In this document: piece after piece, positions 7,072-17,891 of the stretch
Layout of the letters: each line of letters begins with the position of its first letter
Numbering within the stretch: the first letter of the stretch is position 1
NCBI GenBank assembly: GCA_026388345.1
Contig: JAPLJY010000008.1
Location: 1-19,610, forward strand
Origin: Deltaproteobacteria bacterium
Lineage (GTDB): Bacteria; Desulfobacterota; Syntrophia; Syntrophales; UBA5619
Direction of reading: 5' to 3'
Length of the DNA: 19,610 bases
Notes under the pieces: generated by a model
Told to the model about the DNA's origin: nothing
Seen by the model: only the letters and a program-made list of their open reading frames with translations
Databases searched by the model: none
Program-made: the position numbers and the translations under genes

Positions 7072-7899
7072 TCAGGGCATCAGCGCCTCTTTGAGGATTC
7101 CCAGTTCATCGAGAATCGGTTCCAGTCTCCTTTTGCTCAGCGCGCGGTCCTCGTTCGACCGGGGGAGCTCGATGTTCAGGGTCCCCTTAAACCCGAGTTT
7201 CATCAGGTTTTTGAAGACCCGTTTGAAATCGATCTTTCCGTTCCCGACGGGGAGGTGGTGGTCCAGGACCATGTCGTTGTCGCTCACATGGACGCTGATG
7301 ATCCGGTTGGGGAAGGCGTCCATGAACGATTCCGGGCCGCCGGGCAGCAGGCTCGCATGGGCGATGTCCAGCGTGAGGCCGAAGTACTTCGACGGAATGG
7401 CGTTGAAGACTCGGGCCAGTTCTTCGATCGTGACGCCGAGATAGGCGATCTCTGCCGCTTCGTGGATTTTGTTCATGTTCTCGATCCCGATCGGGAGTTT
7501 GTACTTCTCCGCCAGCTCGACGACGGGTCCGTAGGTCTTGATCAGGCAGTCGAAGACATGGTCCATGAAGAGGCTGAAGTGGTAACCGAAGTGCAGGACG
7601 ACGTATTCCGCCTCCAACTGGTGGGCGAGTTCGACGTAATCGATCAGGTGCTGCTGGACGGCCCTGCGGACGGTCGGTTCGATCTCGGCGGCGTTGACGA
7701 ACGAGGCGGAATGGAGGCCGTACTTGACGCCGGCTTTGTCCCGGAGCTTCTTGATGCCGTCGATCCTTGCGGGAGTCCATTTGTCCAGAAAGTTGTTCGG
7801 GTTGTTACAGCTCAGTTCCATCCAGGGGAAGCCGTTCTCCTTGGCAAAGGAAAAGTACTCCTCCATGGGTTGCGGTCCGGCATTGAAGCAGAGTTTCAT
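7072..7899 (-). CDS. Sugar phosphate isomerase/epimerase-like TIM-barrel protein (AP endonuclease 2 superfamily)
   Basis: Start ATG 7899 is chosen because GGAGG (minus strand, 7907-7911) lies 7 nt upstream; the frame is open further but overlaps the preceding gene. The 275-residue product has the xylose-isomerase-like barrel with the metal-binding carboxylates and histidines in order: 'GIENM' (E140), 'TLDIAHA' (D178, H181), 'SVHVSDND' (H204, D207), 'HHLPVGNGKIDF' (H214/H215) and 'NIELP' (E244). These proteins are divalent-metal enzymes that isomerise, epimerise or dehydrate sugars, inosose or related polyols; a few are endonuclease IV. The 'HLPVGNGKIDF' block is typical of the isomerase-like branch. 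It is the last gene of the large minus-strand operon, after a 6PGDH-like dehydrogenase, a pairing common in sugar-acid or polyol catabolism. The exact substrate is unknown. Confidence 0.85.
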   Translation of the reverse strand: MKLCFNAGPQPMEEYFSFAKENGFPWMELSCNNPNNFLDKWTPARIDGIKKLRDKAGVKYGLHSASFVNAAEIEPTVRRAVQQHLIDYVELAHQLEAEYVVLHFGYHFSLFMDHVFDCLIKTYGPVVELAEKYKLPIGIENMNKIHEAAEIAYLGVTIEELARVFNAIPSKYFGLTLDIAHASLLPGGPESFMDAFPNRIISVHVSDNDMVLDHHLPVGNGKIDFKRVFKNLMKLGFKGTLNIELPRSNEDRALSKRRLEPILDELGILKEALMP

Positions 7900-7994
7900 C
7901 TTGTAACCTCCAAGTGTGAATGAAAAATATTGAAGAAACCATCCCCTTTTCGCTGAAAGGGAATCCGCGGGAGGGGAATCGCTCCCGCTCCGTT

Positions 7995-8888
7995 TTACGC
8001 GTGAGATCCCTCCGCAGGGTTCTCCATCGCCCGGAGAACCTCGGTGAGTGTAGCCGGCAGTTCGCCGCCGAAACGTTCGCGCAGGCCGAAACCGGCGCAC
8101 CAGCGAAGCTTTTCCATCGCTGCGCGGGACATCCCGGAGGGCAAACCCATCCCTTCGAGTGTGGCGATGACCTCCTCCATCTCGTGGGCCATGCGCTCGG
8201 CGTTGACGCCCCCCTTCGTCATCTGGAGGCGCGCGGTCTCCAGGAAGGGAACGCCGTCCAGGGATTCCGCGATGGAACCGAGGACGGTTTCGTCGACGCC
8301 GTAACGGTGGGTGGCCGTGAGCATTTCGAGAAAGAGGGAGAGCAATCCCTTCATGAAGATGCTGCGGAACATCTTGATCGCGGAGGCCTGGCCCGGTTTT
8401 TCGCCGATCACGCGGATGTTCATTCCGTAGGGTTGCATGCATTTCCGAAACCGTTCCGCGCCGCCGCCGGAGGCGAGGATCGGCACCCGGTGGAGAAAGG
8501 TCGGAACCGCCCCCATCATTGCCGTATCGACGAATGCGGCCCCGGCCTTTTCGACGATTCCAGCGACCTGTTCCTTGATTTGCGGCGCGGCCGTGTTCAC
8601 ATCCGCGTAGAGCTTTCCGGGGGCAAGGAAGGGGGCCGCCTCCTCCGCAACGGAAACGGCCATTGCCCCGGTAACACAGGAGAAGACCACGTCGACCCGG
8701 GAGAGGAGTTCTCCGGCGGTTGCCGCCGGAAGGGCGCCGATCTCGGCCGCATGGCGGCGGATCACCTGCGCATAGGGCGGCGTCTGCTGCATGCGGTCGT
8801 AAAACAGGATCTCCGTGAGGCCCGTCTGATGGAGCCCCTTGGCCAGGCCGTAGCCGGCGCCTCCGAAACCGATGAACCCGATCTTCAT
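7995..8888 (-). CDS. NAD(P)-dependent oxidoreductase, 6-phosphogluconate/3-hydroxyisobutyrate dehydrogenase-like with DUF1932-type C-terminus
   Basis: The 297-residue product begins with a Rossmann fold: 'IGFIGFGGAGYGLAKGL' (3-19, GXGXXG) and acidic D31 followed by Arg at the end of strand 2, which leaves the NAD/NADP choice open. 'DVNTAAP' (96-102) is the substrate-side loop, equivalent to the 'DxST' loop of beta-hydroxyacid dehydrogenases. 'GQASAIKMFRS' (166-176) places the family's catalytic lysine at K172. The all-helical C-terminal part (about 190-265) looks like DUF1932 rather than a classical NAD_binding_11 domain. GGAGGGAAAAG lies directly before ATG 8888. It starts 16 nt after the stop of the Cys/His-rich gene, in an operon with TTT-type carboxylate uptake, so a hydroxy-acid substrate is a reasonable inference. 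The actual substrate cannot be read. Confidence 0.85.
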   Translation of the reverse strand: MKIGFIGFGGAGYGLAKGLHQTGLTEILFYDRMQQTPPYAQVIRRHAAEIGALPAATAGELLSRVDVVFSCVTGAMAVSVAEEAAPFLAPGKLYADVNTAAPQIKEQVAGIVEKAGAAFVDTAMMGAVPTFLHRVPILASGGGAERFRKCMQPYGMNIRVIGEKPGQASAIKMFRSIFMKGLLSLFLEMLTATHRYGVDETVLGSIAESLDGVPFLETARLQMTKGGVNAERMAHEMEEVIATLEGMGLPSGMSRAAMEKLRWCAGFGLRERFGGELPATLTEVLRAMENPAEGSHA

Positions 8889-8904: not shown

Positions 8905-9555
8905 CTACCAGCGATCCACCGTGTAGAGCGGCGCCTTTTCCCGGAGCAACTCCGCCGAACGGCAGGGGTTGTAAATCCCGCAGGTGCAGGGTTCCGCCAG
9001 GAGCACGCTCCCGTCCCACTCGCTCACCTTGCCGCTCTTGACACGGCGGATCATGTCCTTGACCAGAAAAGGAGAGACGACGCCGTGGCCGCACATGGTT
9101 GTAAACTCCCGGATGTCCGCCGGCGGAAGGCGATCCGTGTTCCCGTGGATGCCGAGCGACAGGTTGATCATGTGGGGGTTGATGCCGCACTCCGCGGCAA
9201 TTTCCCTGATGCGGTCGGTGACCCCGCTGACCATGATGGAGATCCCTTCGTCTGCCTCCTTGATCAGGATCAGCGCCTTCTTGAGCTTCTCCCGGTCATC
9301 GAAGACCGAATAGACGCGCGTCCCTTCGACGGTGATGCTGTCGAGGATCTCTTCGTTCGTGACCCCGCTGTACATGTTGCGGCGCAGCGACGTCGGGATC
9401 ATGTTGACCGGCCCCGCCTGGTAGAGCAGCTCGACATTGTGCCGAATCTTCGGTTCGCTCCCTTTGTAATTGAATCCCCTCGCCGGGTAGATGAAGAGGA
9501 CATACTCCCTCTCCAGCGATTCCAGACTTCCTTCTCTGTGTAGACTGTGAGTCAT
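8905..9555 (-). CDS. Conserved Cys/His-rich protein of unknown function ('MCGHG ... CTCGIYNPC')
   Basis: I cannot assign a function. The 216-residue protein is soluble, with no signal or membrane segment. The N-terminal two thirds look like an alpha/beta fold: strands 'YVLFIYPARGF' (18-28), 'VNMIPTS' (50-56) and 'GISIMVSGV' (104-112). The last third is striking: 'TTMCGHGVVS' (152-161; C155, H157) followed by 'AEPCTCGIYNPCRS' (187-200; C190, C192, C198), with C123, H128 and H137 before it. This suggests a metal or Fe-S site. I recall similar 'MCGHG' and 'C-CG-NP-R' blocks in hypothetical proteins of anaerobes, but this is memory, not a search. AAGGAT sits 6 nt before ATG 9555. The gene lies 48 nt after the second ferredoxin and 16 nt before the dehydrogenase, so it belongs to the operon and perhaps to its redox module. 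Confidence 0.75.
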   Translation of the reverse strand: MTHSLHREGSLESLEREYVLFIYPARGFNYKGSEPKIRHNVELLYQAGPVNMIPTSLRRNMYSGVTNEEILDSITVEGTRVYSVFDDREKLKKALILIKEADEGISIMVSGVTDRIREIAAECGINPHMINLSLGIHGNTDRLPPADIREFTTMCGHGVVSPFLVKDMIRRVKSGKVSEWDGSVLLAEPCTCGIYNPCRSAELLREKAPLYTVDRW

Positions 9556-9603: not shown

Positions 9604-10329
9604 TTATTCCCAGGCCCGTCCGAGGCCCATGTTGACCTTGGCGTTCGGCCGCCAGGTGAAACCCTCCGCCCGGATGCTTTCCAGGATCTCCTCCGGGATC
9701 TTGAGCCCCGGTTCGACGATGGTGCAGGCGTCAATGCAGAAGACGCTGTCCACCTCCTTGGCAACCTCCTTCAGGGTCCGCAGGATGCCGCGGAGCTGAT
9801 CCCGCTTTACATTGATCTCGATGATCGCCGAGAGAACCCGCTCCCCGAGCATCTCGGGCTTGAGATCCCCCGTCGCCTCGTCGGCGATCATGGAGTGGAT
9901 CGGGTTGTGCGGCTCGATCTTGTGGACGCCGGCGCGGGCAATCGCCCGGGTGATCTTCTGGATGTCCAGAATCGACATCCCGAGCGTGGGCCGGCCGATC
10001 TCGATGGCGACCCCGACCTCTCCGGGACCCACGCGGTGCGTCACGTCGTTGGTCTTGGACTCCTCCGTTCCGCGGCCCTGGATCCCGGTGGCCGCATGTG
10101 TCGCGCTCGGATCGCTGAAATACCGGCGCAGCGCCCGCGGATAGTCGTAAACATTGGGCGATTCCGCGATGGCGTCGACGGGGCAGTGTGCGGCGCGCAG
10201 ACAGGTGCTGCACTCATAACAGACATCCTGATCGATCATGCTTTTGAGTCCGTCGTAGCGGATCGCGGCGGTGGGACAGTAGGGTTGGCAGCGGCCGCAC
10301 CCCACACAGATTTCTTCATGGATCATCAT
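9604..10329 (-). CDS. Two-cluster [4Fe-4S] ferredoxin with an unrecognised C-terminal domain
   Basis: The 241-residue product has two ferredoxin motifs at the N-terminus. The first is CX2CX2CX3CP (C8, C11, C14, C18). The second is CX2CX2CX5CP (C37, C40, C43, C49), stretched by two residues. The following ~170 residues match no domain I know. They contain 'GVAIEIGRPTLGMSILDIQKI' (about 106-125), 'HKIEPHNPIHSMI' (136-148), 'FCIDACTI' with C198 and C202, and a closing 'NAKVNMGLGRAWE'. The start ATG 10329 overlaps the TGA of the FAD oxidoreductase (ATGA), with an AGAGG site 8 nt upstream, which implies translational coupling. Role (inference): cytoplasmic electron carrier or subunit working with the flavoprotein encoded just before it. 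The frame is open upstream, but that part is a shadow of the flavoprotein gene. Confidence 0.85.
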   Translation of the reverse strand: MMIHEEICVGCGRCQPYCPTAAIRYDGLKSMIDQDVCYECSTCLRAAHCPVDAIAESPNVYDYPRALRRYFSDPSATHAATGIQGRGTEESKTNDVTHRVGPGEVGVAIEIGRPTLGMSILDIQKITRAIARAGVHKIEPHNPIHSMIADEATGDLKPEMLGERVLSAIIEINVKRDQLRGILRTLKEVAKEVDSVFCIDACTIVEPGLKIPEEILESIRAEGFTWRPNAKVNMGLGRAWE

Positions 10330-11591
10330 AGACTTGACCTCTTTGGTGACAGAATCAGGGCCTCTCTGCGGCCCGTTTGTTCCGGAAAGCGGATCACGTT
10401 TCCCGTCTGCGGCCGGAGCAGTCCGGCATCCCGGGCGGTGAGCGGCCGCCCGGCGTTGATCAGCGCGTGGAGCGTTCCGGCGGCAGAAATGTCGCCGATC
10501 AGCGCGCCTCCGACCGGTCTTCCATCGATGAGGAACAGCTCTCGTCGGACGGAGGCTTCCGGTCGCGCATGGGAGATCACCTCCGCCCCGACCACCGGGG
10601 GGCCGAGAACAACCATGGCGATACCGTGGAGCTCCATCGCGTTGATCCGCGACCAATCCCGATGCGGCGCCGGTGAGCTCCGATAGAGATTTTCGGCCGC
10701 CAGTTTCCCCTGGGAGACGGCCTGCGGCCAGGTATTCGGACTGATCTTCTCCCCGCGGGATGCGATCACGGCCACGTCCCCCGCGGCGAAGATCCGCGGA
10801 TCGATGGTCTGCAGCGCCGGTGAAACGACAAGCTCCCCGTCCGTGAGGAGGCCTGTTCCCTCTAAAAACGAGGTATCGGGGGAGACCCCGGCCGCAACGA
10901 GGAGGGTGCTGCAGGGGAGCCAGCGTCCCCCCGCCTTCAGGGCGTCGATTCCCCCGTCGCGGATGCGGAGATCCTCCAGCGCGGCGTTTACGCGGACCTT
11001 GATCCCCAGGTTCCGGAGATGCGCCTCGACAACCTCCGCCGCTTCCGGAGAGAGGGCGCGCAGAAGGATATGCCCCCGCCGGACGACGAGGGAGACCTCG
11101 AAACCGGCCTGACTCAGATGGACCGCCGTCTTGACGCCGACAAGCGAGCCGCCGAAGACGACAACCTTCCGGTGATCGCTGATCCACGCCTTTGTCTTCC
11201 GGGCCGTCGTCAGATCACGGACCGGGAAGATTCCGCGGCAGGGCGGACCGGCCAGAATGCCCGGCAGATAAGACTCTCCACCGTGGGCGAGGATCAGGCG
11301 GTCGTAGCAGAGCGCCTCTCCGCTGTCGAGCAGCAGACATCTCCCGCTGCGATCCAGGGACTTGACCCGAACACCAGTCCGGACCGTCAGGAGAGGATCA
11401 TTTCCGCTGTGCGGGAAAAAAAGTTTCTCCTCCGGGAGCGCTCCGACCATGAACTGCGGCAAGAGGGTCCGGTAATAACCAATATCCATTTCGGCGTCGA
11501 TCAGCGTCACGGTCTGGTCCGGCCGCAAGGCCCGGCAGGTCGCGGCGGCCTGAAAACCGGCGGCGCCGCCGCCAACAATTAAACATGTCAT
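10326..11591 (-). CDS. FAD-dependent NAD(P)H oxidoreductase (pyridine nucleotide-disulfide oxidoreductase class, CODH-locus FNOR type)
   Basis: Start ATG 11591 is chosen because AGGAG (minus strand, 11599-11603) lies 7 nt upstream; the in-frame ATG at 11606 has no such site. The 421-residue product has the FAD dinucleotide fold 'CLIVGGGAAGFQAA' (3-16), a second NAD(P)H fold 'VVVFGGSLVGVKTA' (143-156) and the FAD-ribityl block 'IFAAGDVAV' (267-275). It also has a C-terminal domain of the kind seen in rubredoxin/nitrite-reductase-type reductases. There is no CXXC and no Cys at the CoA-disulfide-reductase position, so it should pass electrons to a protein partner rather than to a disulfide. It lies between the CODH-like gene and a ferredoxin gene, matching the CooF-CooS-oxidoreductase order known from CODH loci. 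Likely role: electron exchange between NAD(P)H and the neighbouring Fe-S proteins. Confidence 0.88.
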   Translation of the reverse strand: MTCLIVGGGAAGFQAAATCRALRPDQTVTLIDAEMDIGYYRTLLPQFMVGALPEEKLFFPHSGNDPLLTVRTGVRVKSLDRSGRCLLLDSGEALCYDRLILAHGGESYLPGILAGPPCRGIFPVRDLTTARKTKAWISDHRKVVVFGGSLVGVKTAVHLSQAGFEVSLVVRRGHILLRALSPEAAEVVEAHLRNLGIKVRVNAALEDLRIRDGGIDALKAGGRWLPCSTLLVAAGVSPDTSFLEGTGLLTDGELVVSPALQTIDPRIFAAGDVAVIASRGEKISPNTWPQAVSQGKLAAENLYRSSPAPHRDWSRINAMELHGIAMVVLGPPVVGAEVISHARPEASVRRELFLIDGRPVGGALIGDISAAGTLHALINAGRPLTARDAGLLRPQTGNVIRFPEQTGRREALILSPKRSSL

Positions 11592-11638
11592 GGAACTGCT
11601 CCTCATGGGCTTTCGTTAGCCGATCCGGACGTTTTTCG

Positions 11639-13081
11639 TTACGACCGGATAAACCAACTTAGGATCTCATCGGCCTGGGCCGGATGGTCGAAATGGGCCA
11701 GGATGCCGCCCGCGGCCGCCAGGTTCTCCCTGAGCGCCGTGCGAACCTTCTCGCTTCCCCAGAGGGGCAGGGGAGTGGCGACCATGACCTTCAGGCCGAG
11801 CGCGGCGAGCCCCAGTGCGAAGGTGAACTCGCGGCCGTTCCGCAGAGCCGTGAAACAGATCCCCTTGAGGGCCGGAAGCCTTCCGGTTTCCGCCAGGGCG
11901 CGGACCGCGGTCAGGGGACCATCCTGCGGGTCGAGGATGCCGACGGGGAGATCCTGCTTCAACATCCAGAGGGCCGCATCGCCCCAGGAGGCTACGTCAT
12001 GGTCCTCACCGCGGAGAGCCTTGGACAGTTCCACGGGAAGGTGTCCCAGGGACTGCAAGAGGGTGTCGGCGCCGCCGAGGAGTGCGATCCGGGCGCTCCC
12101 TTTCAGGGAGGATTCCACCTCTTTTGCGGCGAGTCTCACACGCCCCATGCCGACCATGGCCGGGTCGGGTGTGAAGACGCCCGGGATCCGGCGGTTGAAG
12201 GCGCCGCGGGCGCACTTCACGATTTCCGCCGTCCCGGCGTTCTTCCCACAGGAGACAACGGTGAGGTTCATCTTCCCGCAGAGGGCAAGGATGCCCGGAT
12301 CGGTCCCTTCTCCGGCCAGGATCAGGTTCAATTTTCCCGAACTGAGGACGGTCTCCGCCTCGCCGGCGGTACAGGCGATCGGGAGGAAGTCCTCTCCGGC
12401 GGGGATCCAGTCGCCGAGGGAAACCAGACGGACTTCGGGATTTTTCAGGCCCGCGGTCTCCTTGAGCAGCGTCTCAATCGTCGTCCGCGGGATCCGTCCG
12501 GTCATGCCGATCCGGATTGCCTCTCCGGCAAGGAGGCCGTATCCGACGCAGACGCCCCGAACCGCGGAGTCAGGTTGTCTCTGTTCCCGCAGACCGACGC
12601 TGAGAAGCCCGAGGCGGATCGCCTGGCGGACGAGTGCCTCAGGCGTTGCGGAGGGTCGGGACAGAAGCAGCGCGCTCTCCGGGATCTCCGCGTGGGAGAG
12701 GGAATCGCTGCCGGTCTGTTTCAGGGCCGCGGCCGCCCTGGAGGCGAGAGGCGCGGACCAGGCGATCTTTGCGTCATATGCACCCGAGTATTCGGCCGCC
12801 GTTTCGAGGGCGCCCTGGAGGGCCAAGCGGAGCAGGAGGGCCGCAACCATTCCGTCGCGGTCGAGTCCGCAGATCCCATTAAGCGCACCGCGTCCGAACG
12901 GATCGATCCGGCAGGGGCCCTGCATGCAGCCGTAGGGGCAGCAGAGGCCGAGGCGAAGAAATCCGTCCTGCGGCTGCTGTTTTTCATACCGTTCCCAGTT
13001 GAGACCGATCCCCTTGCGGGATGCGTCGCGGAGCAGTTCCTGGCTCACCGGGTCCACCGTCTTGAAATGAATCGTTTCCAT
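11639..13081 (-). CDS. Ni-CODH (CooS)-like protein apparently lacking the C-cluster ligands
   Basis: The N-terminus is plainly CooS-like: 'WERYEKQQPQDGF' (29-41) and 'GLCCPYGCMQGPCRIDPFG' (45-63), ending 'GICG'. Relative to C. hydrogenoformans CODH-II, B-cluster cysteines are present at C48, C52, C57 and C71, with one residue inserted between the first two. Of the two D-cluster cysteines C47 is kept, while the C39 position is Asp. The active-site Ni-Fe-S C-cluster looks dismantled. The His261 region reads 'LILAGEGTDP', C333 has no counterpart, C446 'VGCN' reads 'LLGGAD' (334-339), and C476 'TGC' reads 'SWGD' (365-368). Only C278 ('VSCGKN') and C409 ('GICF') may match C295 and C526. The His ladder after the B-cluster is absent. 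At 480 residues it is about 150 shorter than CooS. CO oxidation is unlikely; electron transfer or a new reaction is possible. Neighbours are a CooF-like protein and a flavoprotein. Confidence 0.8.
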   Translation of the reverse strand: METIHFKTVDPVSQELLRDASRKGIGLNWERYEKQQPQDGFLRLGLCCPYGCMQGPCRIDPFGRGALNGICGLDRDGMVAALLLRLALQGALETAAEYSGAYDAKIAWSAPLASRAAAALKQTGSDSLSHAEIPESALLLSRPSATPEALVRQAIRLGLLSVGLREQRQPDSAVRGVCVGYGLLAGEAIRIGMTGRIPRTTIETLLKETAGLKNPEVRLVSLGDWIPAGEDFLPIACTAGEAETVLSSGKLNLILAGEGTDPGILALCGKMNLTVVSCGKNAGTAEIVKCARGAFNRRIPGVFTPDPAMVGMGRVRLAAKEVESSLKGSARIALLGGADTLLQSLGHLPVELSKALRGEDHDVASWGDAALWMLKQDLPVGILDPQDGPLTAVRALAETGRLPALKGICFTALRNGREFTFALGLAALGLKVMVATPLPLWGSEKVRTALRENLAAAGGILAHFDHPAQADEILSWFIRS

Positions 13082-13115: not shown

Positions 13116-13655
13116 TTATGATCTTCCGAGATCAAGAAGGCGGATTCCTTCCCCGCCGTTGTCCGTCATGGCCTTCGCCGTCCGGAGGCGCTTTTCCCGG
13201 AGCAGTTCCTCGATCCCGTCGAGCTCCACCACATCGAGCGCCTTTGTCGGGCAGACGTCCACGCAGACCGGCTTTTCCATGTAGAGGCAGCGGTCGCACT
13301 TCAAGGCGATCTTTCGCTCGGGGGAGGGATAGATGACGCCATAGGGGCAGAAGGCGGTGCAGGTCCAGCAACCGATGCAGAGATCCTCGCGGATGATCAC
13401 CATGCCGCTCTTCTCATCCCTGCGGAGCGCGCCGGTCAGGCATGCGTCGAGGCAGGGTGCCTGTAGGCAGTGGCGGCATTGGAGCGGAAAGGCGCCATTC
13501 GGTCCCCCCTCGACGCGGACGCGGGACTGGGGGGCCGGGGTTTCCTGAACGGCGGCGAGGAGGGTTCTTCCTTCGCTTCCCCGCTCCGCCCCGCAGTAAA
13601 GCTCACAGGTCTTGCAGCCCGTGCAGCGGTCCATATGAATTCCGATAACTTTCAT
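13116..13655 (-). CDS. CooF/HybA-like electron-transfer protein with four [4Fe-4S] clusters
   Basis: ATG 13655 has AGGAG 6 nt upstream; the longer open frame runs back into tctA. The 179-residue product has sixteen cysteines in four groups: C11/C14/C17/C21, C60/C63/C68/C72, C93/C96/C99/C103 and C120/C123/C131/C135. This is the DMSO-reductase-B/HybA/CooF pattern. It has no Tat signal and no membrane segment, so it is cytoplasmic. Such proteins wire a catalytic Fe-S enzyme to a redox partner; CooF does so for CO dehydrogenase. Here it precedes the CooS-like gene by 34 nt, so it is presumably that protein's partner. The tail after the last cluster (about 140-179) is charged and has no recognisable domain. 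A hydrogenase- or formate-dehydrogenase-type partner is possible in principle, but none is encoded nearby. Confidence 0.9.
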   Translation of the reverse strand: MKVIGIHMDRCTGCKTCELYCGAERGSEGRTLLAAVQETPAPQSRVRVEGGPNGAFPLQCRHCLQAPCLDACLTGALRRDEKSGMVIIREDLCIGCWTCTAFCPYGVIYPSPERKIALKCDRCLYMEKPVCVDVCPTKALDVVELDGIEELLREKRLRTAKAMTDNGGEGIRLLDLGRS

Positions 13656-13723: not shown

Positions 13724-15253
13724 TCATGCGGCCGCCGTTTTCCCCGCCCGGTATTTCATCCAGAGGATGCGGAATAGGGGCGAGAAGAGGGAGACGAGGG
13801 CAAGGACGGTCAACACGCCGGAGATGGGACGGGTGAAGAAGATCGCCATGCTCCCGTGGGAGATCGTCAGCGATTGGCGGAGCGACATCTCCACCATGGG
13901 CCCGAGGACCAGAGCCAGGACCATCGGCGCCGGCGGATAATCGAGCTTCCTCATCAAATAGCCGGCCACGCCGAAGAAGAACATGACCCACATGTCGAAG
14001 ATGTTGTTGTCCGTTGCAAATACGCCTACGGCCGAGATCGTGATGATCAGCGGCATCAGGATCTTGTAGGGGACCTTGAGGAGGCGGACCCAGATGCCGA
14101 TCATCGGCATATTCAGGATGACAAGCATCACGTTGCCGATGTACATGCTGGCAATGAGCCCCCAGACGAAGTCGGGGTGCGTCGAGAAGAGGAGCGGTCC
14201 GGGACGCAGCCCGTGGATGAGCAGCGCCCCCAGCAGAACCGCCGTTGTCCCCGATCCGGGGATGCCCAGCGTCAGCAGCGATACCATCGCGCCGCCGGCG
14301 GCCGAATTGTTCGCCCCCTCCGGGGCCGCCACCCCTTCGATCACCCCCGTTCCGAACTTCTCCGGGTGCTTGCTCACCTTCTTCTCCACGGCGTAGGCCA
14401 TGAACGAGGCGATCGTCGCCCCCGCCCCCGGGAGCACGCCGATGAAAAACCCGATGATCGAGCCCCGCCAGATCGCCCCGAAAGAGTCCTTCCAGTCCTG
14501 GCGGTTCGGAAAGAGACTCCGAAAGTTCAGCTTTGCCTCCGTGAAGATCTGTTGCATCGGCTCCTCGATGTTCACCAGGACCTCCGAGGCGGCAAAGAGC
14601 CCCACCGCCATGCCGATGAAACCGACCCCGTCCAGAAGGTTCATGTTGTCAAAGGTGAACCGGGCCACACCGCTGATTGCATCGATCCCGACGCAGGCGA
14701 CCAGCAGCCCGAGGACACCGCTGATGAGACCCTTGAGGGGAGAATCACCGCCCAGAGAGGTGACGAGTGTCAGCCCCATGAAGGTGAGCGCAAAATATTC
14801 CGGCGGACCGAATGAGACGGCATAATCGGCCAGGGGCGGTGCGATGAACGTCAGCATCAGGACTGCAAACGTGCCCGCAATGAATGAGGATAGGGCCGCC
14901 ATTCCCAGCGCCGGTCCCGGTCGTCCGTTTTTGGCCATCTGGTAGCCGTCGAGCGTCGTCATGACCGAGGCGGACTCCCCGGGCACGTTGAGGAGAATCG
15001 ACGTCGTCGATCCCCCGTACATTGCCCCGTAATAGACCCCTGCCATGGTGATGATCGCCGTTGTCGCACTCATCCCGAAGGTGATCGGGATCAGAATCGC
15101 CACCCCCGTCGTCGGTCCGATCCCCGGCAGCACCCCGATCAGTGTCCCGATCAGCACCCCGACGAAGCAGAAAAGGAGATTCTCCCAGGTGGTGGCGACC
15201 TGAAATCCCAGAATGATGTTATGAAATATGTCCAAGATAATTTCTCCCACCAT
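13724..15253 (-). CDS. tctA: Tripartite tricarboxylate transporter, large permease TctA
   Basis: This is the large (about 12-helix) inner-membrane subunit of a TTT-family secondary transporter that takes up carboxylates delivered by a periplasmic binding protein. The 509-residue product carries the doubled TctA signature: 'GVLPGIGPTTGVAILIPITF' near residues 40-59 and 'GVLPGAGATIASFMAYAVEK' near 272-291. Further blocks include 'YYGAMYGGSTTSILLNVPGE'. The length is normal and no break is seen. ATG 15253 starts 2 nt after the tctB stop, with only a poor ribosome site, so translational coupling to tctB is likely. The upstream open frame is antisense or shadow. The substrate is not readable; TTT systems serve citrate, tartrate, terephthalate and other acids. 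Confidence 0.95.
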   Translation of the reverse strand: MVGEIILDIFHNIILGFQVATTWENLLFCFVGVLIGTLIGVLPGIGPTTGVAILIPITFGMSATTAIITMAGVYYGAMYGGSTTSILLNVPGESASVMTTLDGYQMAKNGRPGPALGMAALSSFIAGTFAVLMLTFIAPPLADYAVSFGPPEYFALTFMGLTLVTSLGGDSPLKGLISGVLGLLVACVGIDAISGVARFTFDNMNLLDGVGFIGMAVGLFAASEVLVNIEEPMQQIFTEAKLNFRSLFPNRQDWKDSFGAIWRGSIIGFFIGVLPGAGATIASFMAYAVEKKVSKHPEKFGTGVIEGVAAPEGANNSAAGGAMVSLLTLGIPGSGTTAVLLGALLIHGLRPGPLLFSTHPDFVWGLIASMYIGNVMLVILNMPMIGIWVRLLKVPYKILMPLIITISAVGVFATDNNIFDMWVMFFFGVAGYLMRKLDYPPAPMVLALVLGPMVEMSLRQSLTISHGSMAIFFTRPISGVLTVLALVSLFSPLFRILWMKYRAGKTAAA

Positions 15254-15255
15254 GC

Positions 15256-15717
15256 CTAAAACCCGAACATGTTCGAGGGCAATGTGATCCCCAGCAGGAC
15301 CTGGAAGATAACGTAGAGCCCCACTGTCGTCGATACTGCAACCATGATCGTCATCGGCCACTTCTCGCGTTCCACGATCCCAAGCAGAAAAGTTACATAC
15401 AGAAAGGTGTCCACCAGATATCCCAGGACCTCGATCAGTACGATATAGACCGCGAGTCCCCCCAGAACCCCTCCGATCGCGATGATCGCCCTCTTCCCCG
15501 GGAAGGGGGACTTGATCTCCTTCCCGGTCGCCTCACGGCGCCAGGCCGTTGCAAGCAGGATCAGCGCCAGGACCGCCAGGATCAAGCCGATCCAGAAGGG
15601 GAGGAATCCCGACCCCGGACCGAACGTCGCCGACGGCGGCATCCGCCAGGACTCCCAAGTCACGTATCCGGAAAGCAACAAAAGAAGAATGCCGGTAATC
15701 AAGTCCGCTTTTTTCAT
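15256..15717 (-). CDS. tctB: Tripartite tricarboxylate transporter, small permease TctB
   Basis: The 153-residue product has the four-helix TctB layout: helix 1 'DLITGILLLLLSGYVTW' (about 4-20), helix 2 'FLPFWIGLILAVLALILLAT' (about 39-58), a polar loop, then two C-terminal hydrophobic stretches including 'VAVYIVLIEVLGYLVDTFLYV'-like sequence (about 89-110) and 'TIMVAVSTTVGLYVIFQVLL' (about 121-140). The 'GPGSGFLPFW' loop is characteristic of TctB. ATG 15717 is preceded by AGGTGAGG; the frame remains open upstream but passes through the terminator-like hairpin and has no signal. It lies between tctC and tctA, the usual order. Confidence 0.9.
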   Translation of the reverse strand: MKKADLITGILLLLLSGYVTWESWRMPPSATFGPGSGFLPFWIGLILAVLALILLATAWRREATGKEIKSPFPGKRAIIAIGGVLGGLAVYIVLIEVLGYLVDTFLYVTFLLGIVEREKWPMTIMVAVSTTVGLYVIFQVLLGITLPSNMFGF

Positions 15718-15850
15718 CAGCCGCCTCACCTTTCCACACCCTTCGCTCCCCTGCCTGCAGGAAGGAAGTCTTCCGGTACAATATCGATTGGGTTTCGCGC
15801 CCGCCGTTTCCGGTGAAGGGAAGGAGGGGAGCAAACTCCCGGTCGTAAAA

Positions 15851-15880
15851 GGCGGGGGCGCGCAAATCCGCGCCCCCGCC
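15851..15880 (-). terminator. Terminator-like hairpin in the tctC-tctB gap
   Basis: GGCGGGGGCGCG and CGCGCCCCCGCC form a perfect 12-bp stem with a six-base loop. Read on the minus strand, the stem is followed by CTTTTACG, a short U-tract. It sits 25 nt after the tctC stop and well before tctB, so it probably ends or attenuates part of the transcripts and stabilises the tctC 3' end. That would make more binding protein than permease. A perfect 12-bp palindrome CCACTGCAGTGG lies just before it at 15893-15904. Confidence 0.75.
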
Positions 15881-15904
15881 GAAATGGTCAAGCCACTGCA
15901 GTGG

Positions 15905-16885
15905 TTACTTCTTCTTGATCAGGTTCATGTCCTTGAGGATGAGGGCGTACTTGCCGTTCCACTCATCGAGGAACTTCCCGAAGGCCGCCCCGTCCATCCA
16001 CGCCTCGGAGAGCATGTTGTCTTTGCAGTACTTCTTGAAGGTTTCGGTCTTTGTGTATTTGAAGAACGCCTCTTCGAGGACCTTCCTCGCGTCCGCCGGG
16101 ATGTCCGCCGGGGCGCAGAGGCCGCGGTTCTGGACATAGATGGCGTTGATCCCCTGCTCCTTCATCGTGGGGATCTCAAGGGAGGCGGCCAGACGCTTCT
16201 CGGCAAAGACGCCGAGGATCTTGACCTTGCCCGCCTTGTAGAGCTCCAGCGCCTCGCCGGGGTTCGTGATCGCCATGTCGATGTGGCCGCCGAGGAGGGC
16301 CGCGTTGACCTCGCCGCCGCCGTTGAAGACGATGAAGTTGAACTTGACGCCGGCCGCCTTCTCGATCAGGTAGGCGCAGATGGAGTCGGAGGAGCCGAGC
16401 TGCGTCCCGCCGACGGTAATCTTCTGCGGATTGGCCTTGGCAAAGTCGATTATCTCCCTCATCGATTTCAATTTTGAATTGGGGCCGACCATCAGCATGT
16501 ATTCGTCAAAGGCGAAGTTGGCGATGGGGGTGAAGTCCTTGAGCCCCACCGGGGTCAGACCCATCAGGGGCGTGGTCATGAAACTGGTAACCGCGGTGAC
16601 GAGGTAGTAGGGATCCTTCTTCTTGCCGGCCACGTAGGCGAAGGCGATGGCGCCGCTTCCGCCGGTCTTGTTCTCGACGATGATCGGCTGGGGAAGGAGC
16701 TTGTCCTTCTCAATCGCCGAAGCCAGGGTCCTCGCAAAGATATCGCTTCCGCCGCCGGCGCCCGCATGGACGACCATCGTGATGGGTTTTTCAGGATACT
16801 TTCCGGCGCCCAGGGCATTTCCCATCCCAATCGCGACAAATAAGACAACCAAAAACAATACAGACAACTTGGACAGGTTTTTCAT
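15905..16885 (-). CDS. tctC: Tripartite tricarboxylate transporter substrate-binding protein TctC
   Basis: This is the periplasmic binding component of the TTT system. The 326-residue product has a signal peptide (1-26, cleavage near 'ALGA') followed by the family start 'YPEKPITMVVHAGAGGGSDIFAR' with the glycine-rich ligand loop (about 30-52). Later come 'VENKTGGSGAIAFAYVA' (about 70-86), 'ITVGGTQLGSSDS' (ligand-contact loop) and a C-terminal helix 'KFLDEWNGKYALILKDMNL'. The length is typical. GGAGG lies 6 nt before ATG 16885. It is the first transport gene and follows the GntR regulator by 105 nt. The ligand is unknown; Bug-type proteins of this family bind many carboxylates, amides and aromatics. 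Confidence 0.95.
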   Translation of the reverse strand: MKNLSKLSVLFLVVLFVAIGMGNALGAGKYPEKPITMVVHAGAGGGSDIFARTLASAIEKDKLLPQPIIVENKTGGSGAIAFAYVAGKKKDPYYLVTAVTSFMTTPLMGLTPVGLKDFTPIANFAFDEYMLMVGPNSKLKSMREIIDFAKANPQKITVGGTQLGSSDSICAYLIEKAAGVKFNFIVFNGGGEVNAALLGGHIDMAITNPGEALELYKAGKVKILGVFAEKRLAASLEIPTMKEQGINAIYVQNRGLCAPADIPADARKVLEEAFFKYTKTETFKKYCKDNMLSEAWMDGAAFGKFLDEWNGKYALILKDMNLIKKK

Positions 16886-16990: not shown

Positions 16991-17794
16991 TCAGCGAATC
17001 CTGTCTTGATCACTCCCTTTGCCTTCTTCATTGCGGTTTGATTTGCCGTTCAAATCGGTATGGTTCTCGTCATTCCGGTTGTAGATCTGTTCGATCTGGA
17101 TATCGAAGTGAATCTCCAGTTCGCGGATCGTCCTTGCGGTATCCCGATTGGCGATCGCCTTCACGATCCGGTCGTGGATGTCCAGCATCAGCTCGATCCG
17201 GGAAGGGTCATCCCGGAAGTATTCCCGGCGCATGTTGATCCAGAGGGGCTGAATGGTCAGGTCGAGGAGTTTTTCCATGATCCCTTCAATGACACGGTTC
17301 TTTGTGGCCCGGGCGATGGCGAGGTGAAATTCCTTCCCATAGCGGAGGTATTCTTCGAGATCCCCCCGGCGGCCGCGTTCGCACTTTTCATCCCAGGCAT
17401 CCTTCAACGCGATGAGGTCGGCGTCCGTCGCGACCTGAATAGCGAGTTGCGCCGCACCGATCTCCATGGCCTTGCGGGCCTGCATGTTTTCGTAGGGGCT
17501 GTCGCATTCCTCCAGGACGGTCAGGGCCTGGCGTTTGAGATCTTCAGTCGCCAAAGGGGCGGAGACGTAGGTGCCGTCGCCGGGGCGGCTTTCGAGGATG
17601 CCGACGATCTGTAGCGCGCTGATCGCCTCGCGCAGGGATGGGCGGCTGACGCCCATCTGTTCGCTGATGACCCGCTCCGACGGCAGTTTGCTCCCCGTCT
17701 TGTAGCGGCCGGTGTTGATCATCCGCAGGATCTGGTCGGCGATGAACGAACTCTTCTTCTTGAACCGGGTTTGGGCTACCTTTTCGAAAGTCAT
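16991..17794 (-). CDS. FadR-subfamily (FCD domain) GntR transcriptional regulator
   Basis: Start ATG 17794 is chosen over an upstream in-frame ATG (17866) because GAGGGA lies 5 nt before it and the longer version would swallow the promoter region. The 267-residue product has an N-terminal winged helix (about 15-79) with 'LPSERVISEQMGVSRPSLREAI' (37-58) and wing 'SRPGDGTYV'. An all-helical FCD ligand domain (about 100-236) follows, whose metal-binding histidines are visible as H157 ('EFHLA'), H207 ('DIHDRI') and H229 ('EIHFD'). FCD regulators usually repress uptake and catabolic genes until a carboxylate or sugar acid binds. Placed directly upstream of tctCBA and divergent from a membrane-protein gene, it probably senses the imported acid. 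The C-terminal 30 residues are Asn/Asp/Lys-rich and probably disordered. Confidence 0.92.
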   Translation of the reverse strand: MTFEKVAQTRFKKKSSFIADQILRMINTGRYKTGSKLPSERVISEQMGVSRPSLREAISALQIVGILESRPGDGTYVSAPLATEDLKRQALTVLEECDSPYENMQARKAMEIGAAQLAIQVATDADLIALKDAWDEKCERGRRGDLEEYLRYGKEFHLAIARATKNRVIEGIMEKLLDLTIQPLWINMRREYFRDDPSRIELMLDIHDRIVKAIANRDTARTIRELEIHFDIQIEQIYNRNDENHTDLNGKSNRNEEGKGSDQDRIR

Positions 17795-17805
17795 CCGTTC
17801 CCTCG

Positions 17806-17847
17806 AAATTGGTCTGACCGGTAAGACTGGATAGCCGTCATTACCGG
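17806..17847. promoter_or_regulatory. Probable GntR/FadR-type operator and overlapping inverted repeat
   Basis: ATTGGTC-T-GACCGGT (17808-17822) is an imperfect dyad with a perfect GGTC/GACC core, close to the FadR-type consensus TGGTCNGACCA. It lies 14 nt or more upstream of the regulator's start codon. A second inverted repeat overlaps it: CCGGTAA (17818-17824) and TTACCGG (17841-17847). A weak minus-strand -35 (TTGACT, complement of 17861-17866) lies upstream, so binding here would block the regulator's own promoter. Autoregulation is inference. Confidence 0.5.
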
Positions 17848-17891
17848 AGCGGAAAGGGGAAGTCAAGGAGAAAATGATAACAAAAAGAGTC

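Follow-up and report, generated by a model that had tools for sequence, protein, structure and literature searches.

The window analysed here, a stretch of 19,610 nucleotides from a member of the Syntrophales (contig JAPLJY010000008.1), encodes a homologue of the Ni-containing CO dehydrogenase (CODH) CooS in which the ligands of the B-cluster are kept and the Ni-Fe-S active site, the C-cluster, is lost. The evidence supports a CODH scaffold that has been kept by selection. The new part is its context, a conserved five-gene operon of the order CooF, CooS-like, FNOR, FdHnr and UNK216. With a probability of roughly 0.6, the CooS-like protein acts in this operon as a relay with one [4Fe-4S] cluster, or as a scaffold, within a module of CooF, CooS-like protein and FNOR that serves the FdHnr-UNK216 pair.

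The CooS-like gene (11639..13081, minus strand) is an intact reading frame with an ATG start. Its product of 480 aa compares with about 620–670 aa in CODHs, in agreement with an earlier sequence-only reading of this DNA that had put the protein some 150 residues short. Only the N-terminal start is recognised by sequence searches: the CooS family model TIGR01702 matches residues 9–91 with 60.4 bits, below the family cut-off of 478, the Pfam Prismane model matches residues 47–99, and CODHs of the PDB match within residues 3–103 (best E 6.8e-20). A protein search returned 481 homologues at E <= 0.001, and among the 120 matches listed identity was 61–100% at a query coverage of 84–100%. Genome contigs yielded 14 further loci, mostly from Syntrophales and other Desulfobacterota, with one each from Rhodospirillales, Acetobacteraceae and a member of the Pseudomonadota of no finer rank; the genomes that bear them are mostly MAGs and may be incomplete.

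Cluster ligands were assigned by motif with numbers that we take to be the CODH-II positions. The assignments come from a sequence alignment at about 20% identity, in which gaps may be off by a few residues; it holds 21 rows (12 window-type proteins, five diverged CooS-like proteins and four CODHs encoded by the same genomes), and the ligand columns were re-read in a second, larger alignment. The B-cluster set C48, C52, C57 and C71 is invariant in all 47 CooS-like orthologues, and its first two cysteines are one residue further apart than in CODH; in the window it is encoded at 12869..12940 on the minus strand (residues 48–71, CPYGCMQGPC...GIC; coordinates derived from the ORF). The D-cluster set of CODHs (C39 and C47) is complete in none of the orthologues, the C39 position being Asp in 47/47 and the C47 position being Ser in 34, Cys in 10, including the window protein, and Ala in three. 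Of the six C-cluster ligands, H261, C295, C333, C446, C476 and C526, the window protein has none. Among the 12 window-type rows, the columns of C295, C333 and C526 are gaps throughout (the residue that follows the C333 gap is Cys in w_P0040 and w_P0088), the C476 column is Asp throughout, the H261 column holds Ala (5), Cys (4), Ser (2) or Thr (1), and the C446 column Ala (9), Val, Thr or Phe (1 each). The acid-base residues are replaced as well: the His93 column is Thr, Ala or Ser in 12/12 rows, and the Lys563 column is Arg in ten, Ser in one and Lys in one. Three further cysteines outside the ligand columns, C237 (45/47), C268 (41/47) and C409 (44/47), are frequent and not invariant. Residue 368 occupies the C476 position, which is Asp or Glu in 18/18 rows that lack C476 and still align there. 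The sequence-only reading had described a complete B-cluster set with one inserted residue, Asp in place of C39, and no counterpart of at least H261, C333, C446 and C476. All of this was borne out, with the loss of C295 and C526 as two more than claimed, and orthologues with the same losses, for which it had proposed to look, exist in the 47 aligned here.

The predicted model of the CooS-like protein shows a CODH fold over the whole length, as had been expected from the resemblance to CooS up to the C-terminal end. Residues 38–45, which adjoin the B-cluster, have a pLDDT below 50, and because this part is poorly modelled and the model is cofactor-free, the B-cluster rests on the sequence.

All genes of the surrounding cluster lie on the minus strand. 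A GntR/FCD (FadR-type) regulator (16991..17866) heads the cluster and is followed by the tripartite tricarboxylate transporter, consisting of the solute receptor TctC (15905..16885), TctB (15256..15891, Pfam match at residues 65–205) and TctA (13724..15361, Pfam match from residue 62), the true starts of the latter two probably lying inside the ORF. Next are the CooF-like polyferredoxin (13116..13655, 179 aa, start chosen at 13655), which has 16 Cys in four groups of four, the CooS-like gene, an FNOR-type FAD/NAD(P) oxidoreductase with a Pyr_redox_2 domain (10326..11606, 426 aa), FdHnr (9604..10329, 241 aa, start chosen at 10329), which combines an N-terminal ferredoxin domain of two Cys4 motifs with an uncharacterised C-terminal domain, and UNK216 (8905..9555, 216 aa), for which Pfam and NCBIfam gave no match. 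Two pathway genes named by Pfam complete the order: an NAD_binding_2/DUF1932 dehydrogenase (7995..8888), 16 bases after UNK216, and an AP_endonuc_2 TIM-barrel protein (7072..7914), whose start codon is not fixed. The gaps between the five central genes are 34, 32, -4 and 48 bases, the FdHnr gene overlapping the FNOR gene by 4 bases. ORF picking by composition was rough, and names are confident for genes scanned with Pfam or matched by custom HMMs.

This arrangement is conserved across the window and the 14 loci, of which L014 starts inside the CooS-like gene and L004, L011 and L013 end in or at this gene. CooF lies upstream of the CooS-like gene in 14/14 loci that span that side, FdHnr and UNK216 lie downstream in 12/12 loci that continue, and FNOR lies between the CooS-like gene and FdHnr in ten of these 12. 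No FNOR was found in the stretch examined at L005 and L014, and the NAD(P)H link is therefore not universal, which counts against the relay explanation. At L002, the identity to the window proteins is 96% for FdHnr and 92% for UNK216, compared to 76% for the CooS-like protein. A second FdHnr-UNK216 pair lies near the full module at two loci (L007:3963-5333 and L010:14254-15632). The losses of ligands, the conservation and the structure of operon and modules, seen in the sequences, and the fold, seen in the model, agree with the sequence-only reading of an intact frame in an operon and of a CODH scaffold repurposed rather than decaying, given the same losses in 47 orthologues, the CODH fold over the whole length of the model and the fixed operon.

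CODHs above the TIGR01702 cut-off were present in five of the eight locus genomes searched, and none was found in G001, G006 and G008, which as MAGs may be incomplete; diverged CooS-like proteins were found too. At seven diverged loci (L035, L036, L037, L038, L039, L046 and L068) all five genes are present, and at three others (L098, L099 and L100), which are cut by contig ends, CooF adjoins CooS. The CooS-like proteins of modules with all five genes range from five C-cluster Cys to none. Both D-cluster Cys, the B-cluster, C333, C446, C476, C526 and Lys563 are retained in L036, L038 and L068, where one Cys beside the C295 column brings the C-cluster Cys to five; the H261 column is His in L038 and Met in L036 and L068. 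CooS-like proteins of 482 aa with D-cluster, B-cluster and five C-cluster Cys are thus encoded at L036:7434-8882, L038 and L068:7478-9034. In L035, L039 and L098, what is left is C39, the B-cluster and one Cys beside C295, with Asp at the C476 position; in L037, L046 and L100, which have Glu at that position, C39 and the B-cluster are left. The B-cluster Cys are kept in 9/9 diverged module rows and in both rows linked to an aldehyde ferredoxin oxidoreductase (AOR), described below.

In a tree of 45 proteins, the 21 module CooS-like proteins form one clade (99/92). The two AOR-linked rows, the CdhA-like row L096 and also L112 were left out of this tree; in a first tree with the long-branch rows, the corresponding branch of module CooS-like proteins plus the two AOR-linked rows reached only 91/90. 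L090, L091 and L094 (partial or identical to the L100 gene) and L095 (identical to the L046 gene) were dropped before both trees, and both carry a long-branch warning at L037/L046. The most parsimonious history on the 45-protein tree has a single change between presence and absence of the C-cluster Cys. L072 and L073, with a D-1-like Glu at C295, do not group with the module CooS-like proteins in either tree, and L112, with Asp at C333, was in the first tree only. The CODHs in the trees are those of the eight locus genomes and of the relatives of a single genome (G002), with whatever CODH clades these happen to hold.

The two ferredoxin motifs of FdHnr account for eight of its Cys, and two more lie near its end. 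Its homologues bear generic names among the matches listed, and 6-hydroxynicotinate reductase is not among the names of the 120 listed. The 6-hydroxynicotinate reductase of E. barkeri may resemble FdHnr, with a ferredoxin-type N-terminus and a similar C-terminal domain. The UNK216 family, without match in Pfam or NCBIfam, numbers at least 620 proteins, and H3, H6, C155, H157, C190 and C192 are invariant in those aligned (38/38); the predicted model of UNK216 (pLDDT 88.6, pTM 0.84) gave no confident match to PDB folds. Among 100 relatives of G002, 15 encode UNK216; two genomes, one of them a Syntrophus MAG, have eight matches each. FdHnr adjoins UNK216 in 32 of 34 hits (L043-L069), the remaining two being at contig ends. 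At L044, the pair is accompanied by a Peptidase_M29 protein, MmgE/PrpD, an amidase and an amidohydrolase, of which the latter three would fit the breakdown of N-heterocycles, as for 6-hydroxynicotinate reductase. Neighbours elsewhere include a class-V aminotransferase (L035), IlvD (L039), a carboxyltransferase (L036) and PdxA (L038). The pair is also found near thiamine-salvage-like genes, namely hydroxyethylthiazole kinase (L057, L059 and L062) and thiamine phosphate synthase (L050). Reduction of an N-heterocycle or an unsaturated acid is one guess at the substrate chemistry of FdHnr-UNK216.

The trio of CooF, CooS-like protein and FNOR and the pair of FdHnr and UNK216 also occur apart. CooS is present at two of 27 UNK216 loci (L043-L069), although several of these are cut by contig ends, L050 ending just behind FNOR, so that a few trios may be missed. 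At L048:9147-11270 and L053:4055-6181, FdHnr is fused behind a GltD-type flavoprotein (Pyr_redox_2 plus Fer4_20; 708–709 aa in total) and followed by UNK216, and no CooS-like protein, CooF or FNOR is found in the stretch examined. Most of the fetched FdHnr-UNK216 loci are without the trio and a replacement is seen only at these two, which counts against the relay explanation. Conversely, L105:2085-9252 carries, in this order, a Fer4 protein, an AOR (AFOR_N plus AFOR_C), CooF, a CooS-like protein of 322 aa, FNOR and an Oxidored_FMN protein, and L106:4243-11192 carries AOR, CooF, a CooS-like protein of 291 aa, FNOR and Oxidored_FMN. These short CooS-like proteins, smaller than the window protein by a third or more, retain the complete Cys sets of the D-cluster (two) and the B-cluster (four); C476 and C526 are absent. 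Since the trio is found with either AOR or FdHnr-UNK216, and the pair is found without the trio, CooF, CooS-like protein and FNOR would form the electron-transfer unit and AOR or FdHnr-UNK216 the catalytic part.

Taken together, the CooS-like protein would be a CODH-derived CooS homologue in which the catalytic C-cluster is gone and the B-cluster serves as relay or scaffold. It would form an electron-transfer module with CooF, through its four Cys4 groups, and FNOR, through FAD and NAD(P)H. Through this module, the NAD(P)(H) pool would be connected with an oxidoreductase of two proteins, FdHnr, with two clusters, and UNK216, which may convert, as its substrate, an organic acid that TctABC imports. 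Cluster assembly, contacts between the partners, the path and direction of the electrons and the substrate are what we infer here. The sequence-only reading had suggested electron transfer or another small-molecule reaction; of the two, electron transfer is the more likely, because the B-cluster is the only invariant cofactor motif of the CooS-like protein, and because the trio goes with two distinct enzymes and is missing from other FdHnr-UNK216 loci.

An unlikely but serious alternative is that the CooS-like protein is a structural scaffold only, in which the B-cluster steadies the fold and electrons pass directly from FNOR to CooF. The loss of the D-cluster ligands in window-type proteins, by which the electron exit of CODHs is gone, counts for such a role and against a relay, and the stepwise disappearance of cluster ligands across the modules points the same way. 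However, the B-cluster Cys are invariant in 47/47 orthologues although the D-cluster positions have changed, and they are kept in the nine diverged module rows and even in both AOR-linked proteins, which are a third shorter. It is less probable still that a new active site, for instance a metal or substrate site of D368, D339, E241 and K375, has arisen at the former C-cluster. W366, G367, D368, D339, E241 and K375 are all invariant (47/47), which could reflect a different function than a relay, and the acidic residue at the C476 position of all 18 rows without C476 that retain the region suits such a site. On the other hand, the adjoining C446 position varies with the same partners (Ala, Val, Thr, Phe, Gly or Glu, and Cys in L036, L038 and L068), and the AOR-linked proteins are shorter and unaligned there. 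By eye, L038, in which the C-cluster Cys are retained, also has a Lys where K375 stands, and K375 may therefore be structural.

A low-turnover CODH, or an enzyme akin to the hybrid cluster proteins (HCPs) with an unrecognised ligand set, is very improbable: C446, C476 and C526 are kept in both HCP-like rows (L030 and L097, which Prismane matches over their full length and which were treated as HCPs) and lost in 12/12 window-type rows, and C237, C268 and C409 are replaced in 2/47, 6/47 and 3/47 members. On the active-site Cys, membership of the HCPs themselves is improbable, the columns of C333, C446, C476 and C526 being Cys in both HCP-like rows compared to 0/4 in the window protein. Decay of a redundant CODH paralogue or an artefact, to which the loss of all catalytic ligands in the window protein might point, is scarcely credible in view of the 481 homologues, the high identity over most of the length among the 120 listed and the 47 intact aligned orthologues, and decay of one gene or a misassembly was rejected on the shared losses, intact frames and same operon across several lineages.

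Compared to Ni-CODHs (CooS, TIGR01702; C. hydrogenoformans CODH-II/IV and D. vulgaris CODH), the CooS-like protein shares the fold, over its full length in the predicted model, the B-cluster Cys and the N-terminal QQPQ...GPCRIDPFG...GICG block. It differs in lacking the C-cluster ligands, in the replacement of C39, the catalytic His and mostly the Lys, in being about 150 residues shorter and in having FdHnr and UNK216 among its operon partners. CooF and FNOR as operon partners are known for some CODHs, and G-1 CODHs are linked to FNOR (PMC6344411). Mini-CooS, placed in clade G, is reported to be small and to carry a complete metal-cluster motif (PMC8776680). As far as these descriptions go, mini-CooS and clade G (WP_007288589 and OGP75751; PMC8776680, PMC6344411) resemble the present proteins in small size and FNOR/CooF context, whereas their cluster motif is complete and that of window-type proteins is absent; by description only, the L036, L038 and L068 modules may belong to this group. 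A CODH-fold protein without CO activity is known in CooS-V, according to PMC13056359 and PMC13240472. In CooS-V and clade D-1 CODHs, as in hybrid cluster proteins, a modified active-site cluster is still bound, whereas its ligands are gone in the CooS-like protein.

Earlier surveys removed sequences with deletions in cluster or catalytic residues and mutants of B-cluster or the last three C-cluster Cys (PMC8776680), discarded hits that had cluster deletions or fell below 550 aa or 200 bits (PMC6344411), required all five C-cluster Cys for inclusion (PMC13240472) or did not cover clades G and H (PMC13056359). A CODH-fold branch without any C-cluster would consequently not appear in them. In a literature search with partial access, in which subscription papers were mostly outside the scope, no report of a CooS without C-cluster in such an operon was found.

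Tentatively, and with the odds somewhat against it, the trio may be viewed as a portable NAD(P)H cassette, in which a CODH has gradually turned from a catalyst into a wire and which serves at least two unrelated enzymes, the AOR family and FdHnr-UNK216, the latter being a new class of Fe-S oxidoreductase, perhaps for N-heterocyclic or other unsaturated carboxylic acids. For annotation, the finding means that a Prismane-based assignment would wrongly suggest CO metabolism at a CooS-like locus. FdHnr-UNK216 is a pointer to an undescribed two-protein oxidoreductase, and the graded series from five C-cluster Cys to none within one type of operon offers a natural experiment on the passage from a metalloenzyme to an electron carrier.
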